Below are positions 1,863-9,162 of a stretch of DNA of 37,743 bases, one piece after another. The translations under genes were made by a program, and so were the position numbers. The stretch lies in the NCBI GenBank assembly GCA_011525805.1, contig WYBR01000064.1:1-37743 (forward strand), in the 5' to 3' direction. The DNA comes from Vicinamibacteraceae bacterium (lineage in GTDB: Bacteria > Planctomycetota > Phycisphaerae > Phycisphaerales > UBA5793). Positions within the stretch are counted from its first letter, which is position 1; the number at the start of each line of letters is the position of its first letter. Under the pieces are notes generated by a model that searched no databases, was not told where the DNA came from, and worked only from the letters and a program-made list of their open reading frames with translations.

Positions 1863-3083
1863 ATGATGAACCGAGAGACGGGCATGATGAATGATCGAGT
1901 TGTCGCGGGCCTGGCCGTGCGGCCGTCGCCGCGGTGCGCGGTGTCCATCCGCGCGGCCGCGGGGAACGATCTGCCCTTCATTGATGCACTCCAGAAAATG
2001 CACTCGCACATGGTGGGCTTCATGCCGCGCGGGCAGATCGAGAAGTATGTTGCAGGCGGGCACGTGCTGCTGGCGGAGGAAAGCCCTCACCACGAAGAGC
2101 ATAACGAGCACGAAGCGGGCACAAAAGACGGCTCTGGTTCCGGTCCATCCCGATCGTCGCTCGGCCGGAACTCGGTGTGCTCCCGGTCTTCGGCGGTGAA
2201 GGCCCCGATCGGGTACATCATGTTCCGCGATCAGTACATGAAGCGCGATGATGTGGGGATCATCTACCAGTTGAACGTGCTGCCGCTGCGGCAGCGCCAC
2301 CTCGTGGGGGCGATGCTCGTCAAGGCGGCCTTCGAGCGTGCGGCCTACGGCTGCCGCCTGTTCTGCTGCTGGTGCGCTCAGGACATCCAGGCGAACTGGT
2401 TCTGGGAGTCGATCGGGTTCATTCCGCTGGCGTTTCGCACGGGCAGTGCCGCCAAGCAGCGGATTCACATCTTCTGGGAGAGGCGGGTGCGCGAGGGGGA
2501 CGATTCGACGCCGTACTGGTTTCCATCGCAGACGGCCGGGGGCGCGGTGGGCGAGGATCGAATCGTCCTGCCGATCCCGCCCGATACGCACTGGCGGGAC
2601 GCCAAGCCGGTGCTGCTGCCTGATCTGCCGGCCCCGGAGCCGGAGCAGCCGTTGACCCTGCCGGGCGGACAGCCCGTGCGGCCGCGCGCCGAGCAGTCGA
2701 AACTGAACGCGCGGGAGCGGGCCGCCATGATCCGGGCGCAATCCAGACACCTCGGCGGCGCGCCGATCGGGAAGAAGGCGGTGCTGCGCGGCGGCCGGAT
2801 CGCGTACGTCACGCGCGAGGATTACTTGGAGGATCCGGATTCGCCGGACCTGTGGGCGCAGCCGCGGGCGAAGAAGCCGACGGCCAGGCGGCCGAGCAAG
2901 CGGCACGATCCCAAGTACCTCGCCGCCGCGCGCGAGTTGCGCGACCGGTACCTGGAGCAGGTGAACACGGGTCGGCTGCTGCCGGAGTCAAGCGGGAAGT
3001 ACGACGTAGGGAGGGCGCTGGAGGCGGGGAGGGCGGAGGGCGTTCAGCCCGAGCCGGTCAAGGGGTTGCTGGACGCGGCGTGA
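1863..3083 (+). CDS. GNAT-family N-acetyltransferase with a 40-residue insert
   Basis: This 406-residue protein has a GNAT fold in residues about 25-210. An N-terminal helix pair (NDLPFIDALQKMHSH) leads to the strands VLLAEE and APIGYIMFRD. Then come the acceptor strand IIYQLNVLPLRQRHLVGAML, matching the usual V-x-P-x-x-R-x-x-G-x-G/A acetyl-CoA loop, and the late helix/strand QANWFWESIGFIPL. Residues 74-113 are a polar linker splitting the strands AEE and APIG (see the separate entry). The C-terminal half is Pro/Arg-rich and basic, with short helices (about 330-406), and has no family assignment. ATG at 1863 follows AGGA at 1853-1856. The substrate is unknown. The gene converges on the antiporter gene with 11 bp between them. 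Confidence 0.85.
   Translation: MMNRETGMMNDRVVAGLAVRPSPRCAVSIRAAAGNDLPFIDALQKMHSHMVGFMPRGQIEKYVAGGHVLLAEESPHHEEHNEHEAGTKDGSGSGPSRSSLGRNSVCSRSSAVKAPIGYIMFRDQYMKRDDVGIIYQLNVLPLRQRHLVGAMLVKAAFERAAYGCRLFCCWCAQDIQANWFWESIGFIPLAFRTGSAAKQRIHIFWERRVREGDDSTPYWFPSQTAGGAVGEDRIVLPIPPDTHWRDAKPVLLPDLPAPEPEQPLTLPGGQPVRPRAEQSKLNARERAAMIRAQSRHLGGAPIGKKAVLRGGRIAYVTREDYLEDPDSPDLWAQPRAKKPTARRPSKRHDPKYLAAARELRDRYLEQVNTGRLLPESSGKYDVGRALEAGRAEGVQPEPVKGLLDAA
2082..2201 (+). repeat. In-frame 120-bp insert in the acetyltransferase gene
   Basis: Exactly 40 codons separate two strands that are normally adjacent in GNAT proteins (GCG GAG GAA then GCC CCG ATC GGG). The left part reads CTCACCACGAAGAGC and then GAGCACGAAG, resembling the dispersed repeat at 322-353. 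The encoded peptide is His/Glu-rich, then Gly/Ser-rich, unlike the flanking domain. I infer an insertion of intergenic-type repeat DNA that kept the frame. Confidence 0.6.
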
Positions 3084-3094
3084 GAGAGCGGGGT

Positions 3095-4474
3095 TCAGCC
3101 GCGGGTTTCGCCGGCCTTGATGAACCCGAACCGCAGCAGGATCGGGCCGAAACTCTCGAAGAGCGCAATCGACGCGAGAAGCAGGCTGGTGAGGTAGGGG
3201 CCCCACACGAACTCGGAATAGAGCGTGGAGACCGACGTGGCGAGCGCGATGGACACGCCGGCCTGCGGGATCAGCGCCGTCCACAGCCAGTGGCGCGCCG
3301 GACTCGGCACGTCGGTGATCCGGCAGGCCAGCGTCGTCCCGCTCCAGATCGAAGCGACGCGCACCACGACGATGGCCAGCGCCACCGGCCAGAGCAGGAG
3401 CACGGCGTTCAGGTCGATCTTCGCGCCGGCGATGGCGAAGAAGACGCAGTACACCGGCAGCGACAGGTTCTCGATCGAGTGAAAGAGGCTCTCGCTCTTG
3501 CCCGGCCAGATGTTGGAGAGCATGAATCCGGCGGTGAGGGCGACGAGGAGCGGCTCGAGATGGAGCGACTCGCTGACGAGGACGATGCCCAGCGTCGTTC
3601 CGAGGACGAAGAGGGGGGTGTTGCGGCCCAGGCGGTCGATGAACGTGCTGACGACGGCGCCGAGGGCGGCCCCGACGCCGATGGAGCCGAGCAGGTGCCA
3701 GGCGAGTTCGGCGAAGAGCGAGGCGTTGAGCGCCGTGCCCCCTTCGGCGCGGAGCATGCCGTATCCGACGCCGCTGGCGACCGTGAAGAGCACCACGACG
3801 AGCAGGTCCTTGCACACCGTGACCGCGAGGGCCGTTTCGGCCATCGGTCCGCGGGCCCGCGTTTCCCCGAGCATGGCGACGAGGACGGCCGGCGAATTCG
3901 TCATTGAGATCACCGCGACGACCACGCTGACGACGAGCAGGTGACGCGAAGAGAGATCCGCGAGAAAGTCGACATGCCTCCCGCCGAGATAGAGCAGGCT
4001 GAGCACCGAAACGAAGACGAACGCCATCTCGACGAGCGTGATGGTCAACACGCGTCCGAGGCCGCGCCGCAGAAGGTCGATCTTGATCTCACCGCCCGCG
4101 GTCATGCCGATGAGCGCGATGGCGAGCGAACTGAAGATGCGCAGGTGGTCGATCTGCGCCATGGAAAGCAGGGGAGGCGTGTTCTCTGAAATCACGGAGA
4201 TGAGCGAAGGGCCGATGAGGATGCCGAAGGCGAGGTAGCCGGTAATGCGCGGCAGGTGAAGAAGTTTGAAGACCCGGCCGCTCAGCCACGCGCCCAGGAG
4301 CAGCATGGCCAGCGCCGTGGCCGTGGCGACGTGGTCGTAAGGCGGGGCCTTGAACGTCCGGCCGATCGCGTCCAGGTACTCCATCTCGCCGTGAGACGCC
4401 GTCAGCAGGCGCAGCGCCGCCACCGCGACAAGGAGCAGCACCCAGACGGCCAGCAGGCGCGGAATGGCTTTCAT
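3095..4474 (-). CDS. Cation/proton antiporter (CPA-type), second of a pair
   Basis: This 459-residue integral membrane protein has roughly 12-13 hydrophobic segments, consistent with a monovalent cation/H+ exchanger of the Na_H_Exchanger domain family. Visible hallmarks are an early ITGYLAFGILIGPSL helix (Gly/Pro-rich entry helix), IALIGMTAGGEIK, a SMTNSPAVLVAMLGE stretch where related antiporters have a T/S-N/D-x-P unwound segment, and KDLLVVVLFTVASG following it. No cytoplasmic regulatory domain such as TrkA-N is fused. The ATG overlaps the previous gene's stop as ATGA, so translation is probably coupled. With the neighbouring antiporter it may form a paired or heteromeric exchanger. Na+ versus K+ cannot be told from sequence. 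Confidence 0.85.
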   Translation of the reverse strand: MKAIPRLLAVWVLLLVAVAALRLLTASHGEMEYLDAIGRTFKAPPYDHVATATALAMLLLGAWLSGRVFKLLHLPRITGYLAFGILIGPSLISVISENTPPLLSMAQIDHLRIFSSLAIALIGMTAGGEIKIDLLRRGLGRVLTITLVEMAFVFVSVLSLLYLGGRHVDFLADLSSRHLLVVSVVVAVISMTNSPAVLVAMLGETRARGPMAETALAVTVCKDLLVVVLFTVASGVGYGMLRAEGGTALNASLFAELAWHLLGSIGVGAALGAVVSTFIDRLGRNTPLFVLGTTLGIVLVSESLHLEPLLVALTAGFMLSNIWPGKSESLFHSIENLSLPVYCVFFAIAGAKIDLNAVLLLWPVALAIVVVRVASIWSGTTLACRITDVPSPARHWLWTALIPQAGVSIALATSVSTLYSEFVWGPYLTSLLLASIALFESFGPILLRFGFIKAGETRG

Positions 4475-5820
4475 GCCCCCGCCTCCTGCGCCCCTTGGGC
4501 GCTCGCCTGGGCGGCGGTCGCGTCGCCCTTGCGCCGCGCCAGAATGAAGGGCAGCAACTCGCTCACGGCGCCGACCACGATCACGATCGTCAACAGCCGC
4601 TGGTTGAGAATGGAACTTTCGTGCAGCACGAGCGAGACGGCCAGCGCCAGCGCGACGAGCGACTGCCGCAGTGGCGCGCGAAAGAGCGGGCTGCGGCCGG
4701 GAAGTGCATGGTCGAACCGGTTCAGGCTCAGGCGCATCAGCGGCGTCTTGACCGCGACGCGCAGGGCCACCAGCCCGGCCACCAGCGCCGCGCCCCACAC
4801 GCCGATCCGCGGATCGAGAAGCACACCGGCAAGCAGGGCGAAGAGGATCGCCACCGGCTGCTCGGCGCGGAGGATGAAGCGCTCGAACTCGCGGAGTTTC
4901 GGTCCGCCGAGGTTGGTGATGACGATTCCGCAGAGCATGGCCGCAAAGAGCGGCGAGACCGCCAGTTCCGACGCGATGCCGCTGATGATCGCGATCATCG
5001 CGATGTGGATGACAAGCAGTTCGCGACGTTCGCGACCGGCCTGCTGCAGCAGGTAGCGGCCGATGAAACCCACGCCCGTGGCCAGCAGAGCCGCCGCGAG
5101 CAGGCGCAGCGCCCCCGTCGGGATCGACACAACGACGTCCCCGCTTGCATCGCGCGAGGGGAGGATCATGAGCAGCCCGTGAAGGCAGACGGCGAGGATC
5201 GCGGCCAGCCCGGCGCCGGCCTGCACGAGCACCTCGAGGTGCCGACCCGCCGCGGTCCGCTGTTCGCCGAGGGATCGAGTCTCGGCCGCCCATCCGATGC
5301 AGGCGGTGATGAGCAGTCCCACTGGCGCGACCCACCAGGCGGCGCGGTCCGCGGTCAGCATCTGCCCAAGCGCCAGCGCGGAGACGAGCCCGCCCAGCGC
5401 AATCATGGCCAGCGCGTCCATCGCGACCCACCGCCGCACGGCGGTCGGAACGGCCGTCAGCAGCGACCGGCGGGCCTGGAGGCCGATGATCGCGCCGATC
5501 CAGCCGAGGCCCACCATGAGCGCCGGCCGCACCTCGAGGAGCATCTCGTCGGTGACGACGTTGGCTCCCCACGGCCCGAGGAGGAAGCCGATGAGCACGG
5601 CGATCCAGCCGCCGCTCATGTAACGGGCCAGGAGCAGATTGCGCTGGAAGCGGTAAAGGGACTTGCTCGTCGCGAGAATCGCCAGTCCCGAGAGCAGCAC
5701 CATCGCCGCGAATATCCGCAGCGCGCTCGCGCCGGCGCCCGCCCCCGTCGAGCCTTCAGCCGCGAGAATCAGCAGCGGCGCAAGGCCGTCGGTGGCGTGC
5801 AGGGGAATCGGAGCGTTCAT
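4471..5820 (-). CDS. Cation/proton antiporter-like membrane protein, first of a pair
   Basis: This 449-residue protein has about 12 hydrophobic segments. After a short N-terminus come a transmembrane helix, a loop with SLYRFQRNLLLARYMSGG, and GWIAVLIGFLLGPWG, the equivalent of the first exchanger helix. The second half includes ELAVSPLFAAMLCGIVITNL and EQPVAILFALLAGVLLDPRI, typical of the C-terminal half of CPA transporters. It is more divergent than its downstream partner, and I do not see a clear N-D or D-D ion-binding motif in the equivalent helix, so it may be a non-transporting or altered-specificity subunit. It lies 29 bp after the PII-like gene and overlaps the next antiporter by 4 bp. 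Confidence 0.75.
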   Translation of the reverse strand: MNAPIPLHATDGLAPLLILAAEGSTGAGAGASALRIFAAMVLLSGLAILATSKSLYRFQRNLLLARYMSGGWIAVLIGFLLGPWGANVVTDEMLLEVRPALMVGLGWIGAIIGLQARRSLLTAVPTAVRRWVAMDALAMIALGGLVSALALGQMLTADRAAWWVAPVGLLITACIGWAAETRSLGEQRTAAGRHLEVLVQAGAGLAAILAVCLHGLLMILPSRDASGDVVVSIPTGALRLLAAALLATGVGFIGRYLLQQAGRERRELLVIHIAMIAIISGIASELAVSPLFAAMLCGIVITNLGGPKLREFERFILRAEQPVAILFALLAGVLLDPRIGVWGAALVAGLVALRVAVKTPLMRLSLNRFDHALPGRSPLFRAPLRQSLVALALAVSLVLHESSILNQRLLTIVIVVGAVSELLPFILARRKGDATAAQASAQGAQEAGA

Positions 5821-5849
5821 CTCTTACTCACGGTTCGCGTGCTCGCGGG

Positions 5850-6191
5850 TCAGGCGCGGATCGGTCCCCAGAACTCGGCGACGGGAATCGCAATGCCGAT
5901 CGGCTGCTGATCCGGCTCCATGTCGTCCACGTACGTCTGAAGGCGTTCGATCTCCGAGGTGGAGGTGAGGGAGATCACGACCCGGCTGCCGGTGTGCTGG
6001 GGCAGAAGCGCCGCCAGGCCGGCGAACATCGGCATGTCCTGACGAAGGATCGCGCCCAGCCCCTTCGACTCGATCACCGTCGCGCCGGTGATGCCCACGT
6101 CGAGCATCCCGGTGACAAGTTCGTCCAGTGCCGCCTCGCTTCGCGCGATCAGGATGAGCAGCCTCGTGTTCGAGCGCGCCTCTTCATCCAT
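5850..6191 (-). CDS. PII-like signalling protein (degenerate)
   Basis: This 113-residue protein matches PII length (about 112). It has the beta-alpha-beta opening (RLLILIARSEAALDELVTGM), the conserved turn DVGITGATVIESKG, and a second beta-alpha-beta (SRVVISLTSTSEIERLQTYV). It lacks the PII T-loop tyrosine region and the TGxxGDGKI B-loop, so ATP/2-oxoglutarate sensing as in GlnB/GlnK is unlikely. It is better placed among the PII-like proteins that often sit beside transporters. It is translated between the IIA-like gene (8-bp overlap) and the antiporter pair, so the likely job is allosteric control of the antiporters. The ligand is unknown. Confidence 0.75.
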   Translation of the reverse strand: MDEEARSNTRLLILIARSEAALDELVTGMLDVGITGATVIESKGLGAILRQDMPMFAGLAALLPQHTGSRVVISLTSTSEIERLQTYVDDMEPDQQPIGIAIPVAEFWGPIRA

Positions 6192-6648
6192 GAGATCGAT
6201 CCTCCGCGAGCAGCGTCTCGTAGAGGTCGGCGGCGCTCGCCGCGCCTCGCAGGCGCGTCCGGGCCGTCTCCGATCGCACGATGCGCGCCAGCCGGGCGAG
6301 CAGGCGGACGTGGTCCCACGGATCGCTCGTCGGGCCGAACATGCAGAAGACGAGGTCCGACCTGGGATGATGCGCCACGCCGAAATCGACGCCAGGCTTG
6401 AGCAGCGCCGCCGCCACGTGCGTCTTGTCGATCTCCGCCGCCAGCGCGTGCGGAAACGCCACCCCCTCGGGCGTCGAGGTCGGCATCTGCTTCTCGCGCG
6501 CCATCAGCCGCTGCACCAGCGCTTCGCCCTTGAGCGCGGGGATCATCGCGTCCACGGAGGCGGCCAGCCGCTTGAAGAGTTCATCCCGCGACTCGATGCC
6601 TTCAAGGATGAACGTGAGGTCCGGCCGGATGTAGGGTTGCAGAGCCAT
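6184..6648 (-). CDS. PTS IIA-like (EIIA fructose/Ntr type) protein
   Basis: This 154-residue protein is the length of a single EIIA type-2 domain. Residues 45-69 carry the family signature (LMAREKQMPTSTPEGVAFPH), putting the phosphorylatable His at about residue 67. LVFCMFGPTSDPWDHVRLLA matches the later conserved strand-helix before the C-terminus. No EIIB or EIIC partner is present. It heads an operon with a PII-like protein and two antiporters, so a regulatory phosphoprotein (PtsN-like) controlling ion transport is more likely than sugar uptake. ATG at 6648 follows a GGCGGGA stretch. The stop overlaps the next start by 8 bp. PtsN regulating K+ homeostasis in proteobacteria is an established parallel; direct action here is inference. 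Confidence 0.85.
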   Translation of the reverse strand: MALQPYIRPDLTFILEGIESRDELFKRLAASVDAMIPALKGEALVQRLMAREKQMPTSTPEGVAFPHALAAEIDKTHVAAALLKPGVDFGVAHHPRSDLVFCMFGPTSDPWDHVRLLARLARIVRSETARTRLRGAASAADLYETLLAEDRSHG

Positions 6649-6777
6649 GATCCCGCCAGCATAGGGGCGATCGACCTGATTGGACAGTGCCGGCCTCGGG
6701 CGGCGTAGAGTCTCGGGTTCTAATCGGCGCACGCTCGCCACGATCCGCTGCCCGAATCTCGTTCGGAGGTGCCGCCC
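6649..6777. promoter_or_regulatory. Divergent intergenic region (IIA operon / PDZ protein)
   Basis: This 129-bp gap separates two divergently read genes, so it should hold promoters for both. On the plus strand TTGGAC (6680-6685) and TAGAGT (6706-6711) are the only box-like words I see, but their 20-bp spacing is too long to trust. A CGGAGG ribosome site at 6764-6769 fixes the start of the plus-strand gene at 6778. Confidence 0.35.
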
Positions 6778-9162
6778 ATGCAACTCGCAGTCCCATCCGC
6801 GCCCCGCCGGCGCCGCCGCCGCGCCGCCACGCTGACCCTCACGGCGGTGCTGTCCTCCTCGATCACCTCCGCCTCGCCAGCGCAGCGCGACGAGCGGCCC
6901 ATTGCCGACCAACCCTTCCACGGCATGCTCGTTCGCGACCACGCCGAGACGGGCGGCTTGCTCGTCGGTTGGATCCTCCCCGGCCCGCTCAACGGCACCG
7001 GTTTCGCCTCCGACATCGTCAACCGCGGCGACCTCATCCTCGCCGTTAACGGCCAGCGCCTCAACCGCGAGGGGTTCAATGCATTCCTTCGCAGCGCCCG
7101 GCCCGGCGAGACGATCACCCTCACCGCGCGGCACACCGGCGGCGACGCCGGCGGAGCCATCCCCAGCGCCGGCGGCGGCACGGACGAGCGCGAGCATCGG
7201 ATCACCCTCGCCTCGCGCGAGCAGTGGTCCGGGCCGATCGCCCACTTGCAGGCCGATGATCCTCCCTTCGACGCCGATGCGACGCTCGGCATGAGCGTTG
7301 CGCCGACCACACTGGAGGAGTTCATCCGCGGACACGTCGAGCGGTTCGACCTTGCCGCCCCGATCGACAAACTGCTAGCCTACTTCAAGACGACGGTGGA
7401 GGAGAACAGCGGCGCCAACATGCTGTCGCGCGTCCGCACGGGCTTCCATCGGCCGACGCGGCTGGTTGAGTTGCAGGGCCTGGTGACGGGCGGCCTGGGG
7501 GAAGCGCCGCGCGATCCCCGCCGGATCTTCCTCGAGGCGGCTGCCAATCTCGATGGTGCAGCGCCCGCGTTCCCGGAGCCGCTTGGCCTGACCGATCCGC
7601 GGCGGACTGTCGAGTCCGTCGCAGCCGCGTTGCGCCGGTCGCAGGCGCATCTCGATGCGGCGTTTGCCGGCATCGACCCCGAACTCCGCGCCTCGCTGCC
7701 CGCCACGCTCATCGACATCACCGAGACCGTCGCGCAGAGCATCTACATCCACGGCCACCCGGAGGCGAAGCGCCTCATCGACGGCTTGCGCGCCAGCCGC
7801 GATGTCGATTTCGACGCGCTCCTCGCGGCGGGCGCGGCGCTGAGCGGCTTCTTGAACGGCGACGCCGCAGACCCCGCTGACGCTCCGGCCATCACCGTGC
7901 CCGTGCCCCTGCTGCAACTCGTGACCGGCGACATCCTCGCATTCGAGTCCATCGGCGATGAGTGGATCGTCTACGGCGGGAGCGGCCCGAACACCTACGA
8001 CATGTCGCGCCTTGCCGCCGTCATCGACGCCGGCGGCGATGATGAGTACCGCTACGGCCCGGTCGACGGCGCAGCGCCCGCCGACTGGCCGAGCGCGCAA
8101 CTCATCGTCGATCTCGCGGGCAATGACCGCTACATCGGCGGCGCGCGCGGCCCGGCCGGGGCGATCATGGGCGTGAGCCTGATCGTCGATCACGCCGGCA
8201 ATGATCGCTACGAAGGGCGGTCGCGCGCCTGCGGCGTCGGCGTCATGGGGGTGGGCGTCATACTCGATCGCGGCGGCGCCGACGTCTACTCCGGCACGCT
8301 CTGGTCGATCGGCGCCGCGTTCTACGGTCTCGGCGCGATCATCGACGGCGGCGCAGACGGCGACGCGTATCTTGCCGAGATGATGAGCCAGGGCATCGGC
8401 GGGCCGCGCGGCTTGGGCGTCATCATCGACGAAGCCGGCCGCGACCTCTATCGCGTCAACGGGCCGACGCCCTCCGTCTACGGCACCCCCGCCGTCTACG
8501 CCGGCTTCAGCCAGGGCGTGGGCTTCGGCGTGCGCCTCTACGACACCGGCGGCATCGGTGCGATCGCCGACCTCGCCGGCGATGATCGCTACGAAGGTGG
8601 CGAGTTCTGCCAGGGCGGCGCCTACTTCTGGGGACTCGGCATCCTCCACGACCGCGCGGGAAACGACCTCTACTACGGCAACCGCTACGGGCAGGCGTGG
8701 GCGGCGCACCAGGCGCTGGGCATCCTCGTCGATGACGCCGGCGATGACACTTACTGGTCGATGACCGCCGCGAGCCAGAGCGGCTCGTGGGACATCTGCG
8801 CCACGCTCCTGCTCGACCGCGCCGGCAACGACTCCTACCACGCCGACGGCCTGGCGCAGGGTGGCGCTTCGCAGCAGGCGATCGCCTGGTTCATTGACCT
8901 CGAAGGGATCGACCGCTACATCGCGCCCGCCGGCGCCACGCGGGGCCAGTCCGGCGGCAACGAGTATCACTTCGACGAGAGCGGCTGCTGGAGTTGGTCC
9001 GTCTTCCTCGACGCCGGCGGGTCAGAAGACTTTTACGCGACGGGGCGGGTGAACGGGGCGGTGCTCTCAACGGGCCAACCAGACACGAGCGCCCCGCACA
9101 ACAGCCCCTTGCATGGGCTGTTCATCGACACGCTGGGGTTGACGCCGCTTTTGCCTCGATAG
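6778..9162 (+). CDS. Secreted PDZ protein with Gly/Asp-rich repeat domain
   Basis: This 794-residue protein starts with an Arg-rich signal-like sequence (run of six Arg, then a hydrophobic stretch to about residue 33). Residues about 45-125 form a PDZ-like domain (GGLLVGWILPGPL, VNRGDLILAVNGQRL). A helical middle follows to about residue 380. Then come about twelve imperfect repeats around D-x-A-G-N/D-D-x-Y, for example IVDLAGNDRYIGG, IVDHAGNDRYEGR, ADLAGDDRYEGG and ILHDRAGNDLYYGN, spaced about 25-40 residues and separated by Gly/Ala/Gln-rich strands such as FCQGGAYFWGLG. This looks like a beta-helix or beta-roll with regularly placed acidic residues, possibly calcium-binding. No protease triad is seen. 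ATG 6778 was chosen over GTG 6769 because the latter overlaps the Shine-Dalgarno. Confidence 0.85.
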   Translation: MQLAVPSAPRRRRRRAATLTLTAVLSSSITSASPAQRDERPIADQPFHGMLVRDHAETGGLLVGWILPGPLNGTGFASDIVNRGDLILAVNGQRLNREGFNAFLRSARPGETITLTARHTGGDAGGAIPSAGGGTDEREHRITLASREQWSGPIAHLQADDPPFDADATLGMSVAPTTLEEFIRGHVERFDLAAPIDKLLAYFKTTVEENSGANMLSRVRTGFHRPTRLVELQGLVTGGLGEAPRDPRRIFLEAAANLDGAAPAFPEPLGLTDPRRTVESVAAALRRSQAHLDAAFAGIDPELRASLPATLIDITETVAQSIYIHGHPEAKRLIDGLRASRDVDFDALLAAGAALSGFLNGDAADPADAPAITVPVPLLQLVTGDILAFESIGDEWIVYGGSGPNTYDMSRLAAVIDAGGDDEYRYGPVDGAAPADWPSAQLIVDLAGNDRYIGGARGPAGAIMGVSLIVDHAGNDRYEGRSRACGVGVMGVGVILDRGGADVYSGTLWSIGAAFYGLGAIIDGGADGDAYLAEMMSQGIGGPRGLGVIIDEAGRDLYRVNGPTPSVYGTPAVYAGFSQGVGFGVRLYDTGGIGAIADLAGDDRYEGGEFCQGGAYFWGLGILHDRAGNDLYYGNRYGQAWAAHQALGILVDDAGDDTYWSMTAASQSGSWDICATLLLDRAGNDSYHADGLAQGGASQQAIAWFIDLEGIDRYIAPAGATRGQSGGNEYHFDESGCWSWSVFLDAGGSEDFYATGRVNGAVLSTGQPDTSAPHNSPLHGLFIDTLGLTPLLPR

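Follow-up and report, generated by a model that had tools for sequence, protein, structure and literature searches.

A conserved gene cassette of Planctomycetota as a candidate cation/proton antiporter module with a IIA-like protein, a PII-like protein and an Asp-less CPA-fold partner

Do adjacent genes for a lone enzyme IIA (EIIA) domain protein of the phosphotransferase system (PTS), a PII-like protein and two membrane proteins of the cation/proton antiporter (CPA) type encode one regulated ion-exchange system? The question is raised by a window of 37,743 nucleotides (the whole stretch of DNA analysed: contig WYBR01000064.1 of assembly GCA_011525805.1, filed as Vicinamibacteraceae bacterium and placed by GTDB in the Phycisphaerales, Planctomycetota), in which four open reading frames (ORFs), IIA, PIIL, CPAa and CPAb, follow one another in this order on the minus strand, all four confirmed within positions 3095-6648. 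The initial annotation had read them as overlapping or near-touching genes for a lone IIA with its phosphorylatable His, a PII-like protein without B-loop and two CPA-type antiporters. The gene arrangement and both small proteins proved to be as described; of the two antiporters, the fold of both and the ion-binding Asp of CPAb were recovered, but CPAa has no such Asp, and from their sequences the pair is best regarded as a catalytic CPA-fold protein together with a non-catalytic one. We estimate at about 0.6 the probability that the four genes form one antiporter module, in which CPAb would catalyse exchange alongside a CPA-fold partner that is itself non-catalytic, with IIA and PIIL as a regulator that takes two inputs.

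Conservation of the cassette and gene fusions

With PIIL as the query, the gene was present in 16 of 41 relatives (window genome counted), and in all 15 other PIIL-bearing genomes of the same taxonomic order the arrangement IIA-PIIL-CPAa-CPAb was found on one strand. An independent search for CPAa with its own profile gave strong matches in exactly the 16 genomes that carry PIIL and in none of the 25 others (Fisher p 1e-11, phylogeny not corrected for); in a sample of the phylum, PIIL was found in 14 of 199. When about 85,000 species genomes were scanned, 122 relatives were confirmed, from which 80 loci were kept, some of them in the same genomes as in the same-order set. All four genes stood in order at 34 loci (CPAb cut by the contig end in two), and five further loci were cut by contig ends. 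The 34 loci are mostly from Planctomycetota, with others from Myxococcota (L089, in a metagenome-assembled genome (MAG) titled Deltaproteobacteria), CSSED10-310 (L090) and Aminicenantes, with PIIL identities of 31-44% in these three groups. Conservation of the four-gene order, which had been named beforehand as a test of the proposed system, thus extends to several phyla. One cassette (L087:5538-9043) lies in a MAG titled Proteobacteria, with a CPAa that falls inside the Phycisphaerales branch, which points to transfer or to a binning or filing error. In two genomes of the same order (L044, L047) CPAa is followed by a tandem pair of CPAb genes, as it also is at L086. The cassette is present, too, in a complete genome, CP050848 of Planctomycetales bacterium ZRK34 (L088).

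The strongest evidence from sequence that IIA and PIIL act together is their fusion. Four genomes of a Planctomycetota family (f17) encode IIA-PIIL in a single ORF, with a divergent IIA domain that keeps its His (18-30 bits to PF00359 and 13.5-15.5 bits to PF00543), and in a Verrucomicrobia MAG an EIIA-2 domain (79.9 bits) is fused to PIIL directly after a single antiporter gene. At 13 loci from Clostridia, Christensenellaceae, Caldisericia and Bacillota, PIIL lies next to just one CPA gene and IIA is absent; in Clostridia and Christensenellaceae the CPA gene has a DD motif and is overlapped or abutted by PIIL.

The membrane proteins CPAa and CPAb

CPAa (4471-5820, minus strand, 449 residues) scores 20.9 bits against PF00999, under the cut-off of 26.2, and its family profile gave only chance matches among PDB sequences. 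Its AlphaFold2 model (predicted local distance difference test score, pLDDT, 88.1) has an intact predicted fold that matches NapA (Z 28.4, 373 residues, 5.3 Å), MjNhaP1 (Z 28.4) and KefC (8bxg; Z 23.5, 5.0 Å over 371 residues), and hhalign aligns CPAa with CPAb over almost the full length (99.9%, E 1.3e-31). By profile alignment and predicted structure, CPAa has the CPA fold. At the site of the ion-binding Asp the window protein reads Ala-Ala (Ala206/Ala207), and Asp is kept in only 7 of the 62 family rows with a letter there. The CPAb Asp is placed by hhalign opposite Ala207, one residue off the column used for counting (Ala206); since the other distinct CPAa rows have no Asp or Glu within two residues of that column, the conclusion of Asp loss is unchanged.

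In a tree built without the Asp segment, 38 diverged rows, the window included, form one branch with no Asp; the method was a quick one, some deep joins lie on long branches, and three Asp changes are needed in all. So deep a branch argues that the loss is old and maintained rather than a recent lesion. CPAa as a recent pseudogene was considered and ruled out by the window copy, which has no internal stop, by conservation across the taxonomic order and by this deep clade lacking Asp throughout. Judged by its sequence, in which the ion-binding Asp is absent, CPAa probably does not work as an antiporter in the known way.

CPAb (3095-4474, minus strand, 459 residues) scores 105.4 bits against the same PF00999 model; apart from this exchanger domain, nothing in it was matched. 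The ion-binding Asp, position 224 in P0004 numbering (one extra leading residue), occurs in every one of the 73 aligned rows, and when the CPAb profile is aligned to PaNhaP it falls on the Asp of the ND motif (E 1.8e-14); CPAb as a single sequence had no matches in the PDB. CPAb probably is a working ion/proton exchanger. The residue before the Asp is Lys in 49 rows (KD, also in the window) and Asp in 13, so that the cassette proteins are mostly KD, in contrast to DD, ND or QD in well-known antiporters, and the Clostridial relatives are DD.

The small proteins PIIL and IIA

PIIL (5850-6191, minus strand, 113 residues) reaches 14.5 bits against the P-II family PF00543, below the cut-off of 25, and is not a canonical PII protein (GlnB/GlnK) by this measure. 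A single PIIL sequence gave only weak PII matches in the PDB, mixed with chance ones, while the family profile matches PII structures (2eg1, E 3.3e-4; 2gw8, E 4e-4). The AlphaFold2 model (pLDDT 84.1) is a ferredoxin-like PII fold with the T-loop between strands 2 and 3; Foldseek matches it at E of about 1e-4 to PII, GlnK, SbtB and CutA, and VIA-align to CPII, SbtB and GlnK with Z of about 9-10 and root-mean-square deviations of 2-4 Å over 80-90 residues. Profile and model agree in placing PIIL in the PII superfamily. None of the 19 aligned PIIL sequences has the B-loop motif GDGK. Of the loops, the T-loop is conserved best, with a majority frequency of 0.74 in its core against 0.41 in the B-loop region, and it has the conserved segment GxGxIxxxxxPxFAGLxxL. 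Both PIIL and CPAa are missed by Pfam and NCBIfam alone and were brought to light by profile and fold comparisons. No canonical PII (GlnB/GlnK) match was seen in the window genome, which is 97% complete, and no member of the PII superfamily other than PIIL was seen there.

IIA (6184-6648, minus strand, 154 residues) is a lone EIIA type-2 domain protein (PF00359, 74.9 bits, cut-off 27), whose nearest solved structure by sequence in a PDB search is IIANtr (1a6j, E 5.9e-7). Against the PtsN equivalog TIGR01419 it scores 50.6 bits, where the cut-off is 138.7, and by these profiles IIA is a relative of PtsN and not PtsN itself. The phosphorylation site His67 is kept in the window and is H in 67 of 68 aligned rows, as is a second residue, His113 (H in 62 of the 68). 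The window genome encodes EI (PF05524, 102.5 bits), HPr (96.9 bits) and three EIIA-2 proteins; with such an EI-HPr relay present, IIA is plausibly phosphorylatable in this organism.

Genomic context

Within the cassette IIA and PIIL overlap by 8 nt, PIIL and CPAa are 29 nt apart, and CPAa and CPAb overlap by 4 nt (ATGA). The flanking genes lie on the plus strand, one at 1863-3083 with a weak GNAT acetyltransferase match and one at 6769-9162 with a weak PDZ match, which sets the four genes apart from their neighbours; IIA-PIIL-CPAa-CPAb is likely transcribed as one unit, a single operon. A sigma-70 type scan found no promoter or terminator above chance.

Proposed mechanism and alternatives

In the proposed module, CPAb would exchange a cation (K+ or Na+) for protons through its conserved Asp, and CPAa would be its non-catalytic partner, either as a subunit of a heteromer or as a docking platform for the regulators. 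PIIL may serve as a metabolite sensor whose T-loop, conserved and hydrophobic, would be presented to the two membrane proteins, much as that of SbtB is to the bicarbonate transporter SbtA. Through His67, IIA would signal how far the EI-HPr relay is phosphorylated, and the fusions elsewhere suggest that the two small proteins act as one unit. By analogy with PtsN and the antiporter YcgO, unphosphorylated IIA would likely restrain exchange. The initial annotation had proposed that two inputs converge on one ion-exchange system; the conserved order and the IIA-PIIL fusions agree with this, but not with a target made of two equivalent antiporters. A more specific form of the proposal, a heteromeric CPA transporter of catalytic and Asp-less subunits gated jointly by PTS phosphorylation and a PII ligand via the IIA-PII sensor, we offer only as tentative.

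Several points weigh against such a module. PII proteins are trimers and the known CPA antiporters are dimers, and with this mismatch the SbtB-SbtA geometry is not directly copyable. The window PIIL has no nucleotide-binding B-loop, so that its ligand is an assumption. One genome of the same genus (G002) and one of the same family (G005) were without PIIL and CPAa, so that the cassette is either patchy even among near relatives or was lost in assembly gaps in these two. Furthermore, PIIL or IIA-PIIL was found without a recognised antiporter in Calditrichota, Caldiserica, Brocadiia and Spirochaetaceae.

The last of these points bears on an alternative in which IIA and PIIL serve other targets (carbon or nitrogen metabolism, or other K+ systems) and are only co-transcribed with the antiporters, which they would not control directly. 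Action of the small proteins on other targets had been named at the outset as what would speak against the system, and in some lineages (Caldiserica, Calditrichota and a Spirochaete, where no antiporter is recognised near PIIL) such targets may indeed exist; PtsN, too, is generally known to have several. For the cassette itself we consider this explanation unlikely, given the exact co-occurrence of CPAa and PIIL, the PIIL-CPA pairs of Clostridia that have no IIA, and an order kept across phyla. Another view of the small protein, that PIIL has lost ligand sensing and serves the antiporter just as a structural adaptor or a constitutive plug, is compatible with most of what the module would require. 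It gains from the absence of GDGK in all aligned PIIL, from the poorly conserved B-loop region and from the T-loop as the best conserved loop, but the PII-like proteins SbtB, PstA and CPII bind small molecules without a canonical B-loop (as is generally known and seen in PDB entries). PIIL is probably ligand-binding, and a purely structural role has perhaps one chance in five.

The membrane proteins could also be two independent transporters, CPAa being active with an Asp-less site and a different substrate, and each having its own regulator, PIIL in one case and IIA in the other. CPAa is indeed strongly maintained: its predicted fold is intact, it has invariant Gly, Asn and Glu positions, and a conserved Arg of CPAb is also kept in the aligned region of CPAa. 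In its Asp column, however, no one residue has taken over (A, S, G, W and others occur), a pattern more in keeping with lost ion binding than with a changed specificity, and CPAb accompanies CPAa at nearly all loci where the contig permits (the exceptions are L055, L057 and L117); we therefore regard two separate transporters as quite improbable.

Among the loci without a recognised antiporter, those of Caldiserica (Cryosericum and its kin) and others (L091-L096, L098-L101, L103, L106, L124) also have no IIA recognised near PIIL, and in the loci that were read PIIL adjoins two ORFs, one helicase-like with a P-loop (GPPGTGKT) and one conserved but unnamed. In Calditrichota (L097, L110, L111) IIA and PIIL are adjacent with no recognised antiporter, and L097 and L110 have a second EIIA-2 gene that is divergently oriented.

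In the tentative heteromeric form of the proposal, a pseudo-antiporter would act as a regulatory subunit and cation/proton antiport would come under PII control. If the proposed antiporter module is correct, one device would tie K+/Na+/pH homeostasis to the carbon and energy state, mostly in poorly studied phyla, and CPAa would clearly illustrate how a transporter fold can be put to new use as a regulatory partner.

Comparison with known systems

The pairs KefC/KefF and KefB/KefG resemble the cassette in that a CPA2 antiporter has a small cytosolic partner encoded alongside, and the KefC fold matches CPAa. KefF and KefG are oxidoreductase-like and the Kef transporter has its own KTN domain, whereas the partners in the cassette are IIA and PIIL. 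CPII of Thiomonas intermedia is PII-like and is the top-ranked fold for PIIL (5ds7, Z 10.2, 3.9 Å over 87 residues, tied with others), although the two share 12% identity. ADP/AMP and bicarbonate are bound to CPII in PDB entries, and its gene context is unlike the cassette.

No paper on a combined system of IIA, PII-like protein and antiporter was found, a weak negative, as subscription journals lay largely outside the literature searched. A review of transporter control (PMC10710835) lists GlnK-AmtB, SbtB-SbtA and the targets of EIIA-Glc, and a search of its text by term gave no mention of PtsN. Precedents exist for each of the two inputs, which the initial annotation had held to be known separately. 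SbtB inserts its T-loop into a cleft of SbtA (PMC8352866), and is thus a PII-like protein that acts via the T-loop on a secondary transporter with an inverted-repeat fold; SbtB is also among the closest folds to PIIL. SbtA, however, is a trimeric bicarbonate transporter and not a CPA antiporter, no IIA takes part, and the T-loop sequence of PIIL is its own. According to the accessible part of another report (PMC11808508), unphosphorylated PtsN binds and inhibits YcgO, a CPA1 K+/H+ antiporter of E. coli, and that part mentions neither a PII protein nor an Asp-less partner. The cassette likewise brings together a single EIIA-2 protein that has a phosphorylatable His and an antiporter of the CPA type, but the target of PtsN, as described there, is the C-terminal cytoplasmic region (CorC/RCK) of YcgO, and in CPAb (459 residues) only the exchanger domain was matched. 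Control of transporters by EIIA and by PII-like proteins is thus already known, and the new elements of the cassette are the Asp-less partner and the joined sensors.

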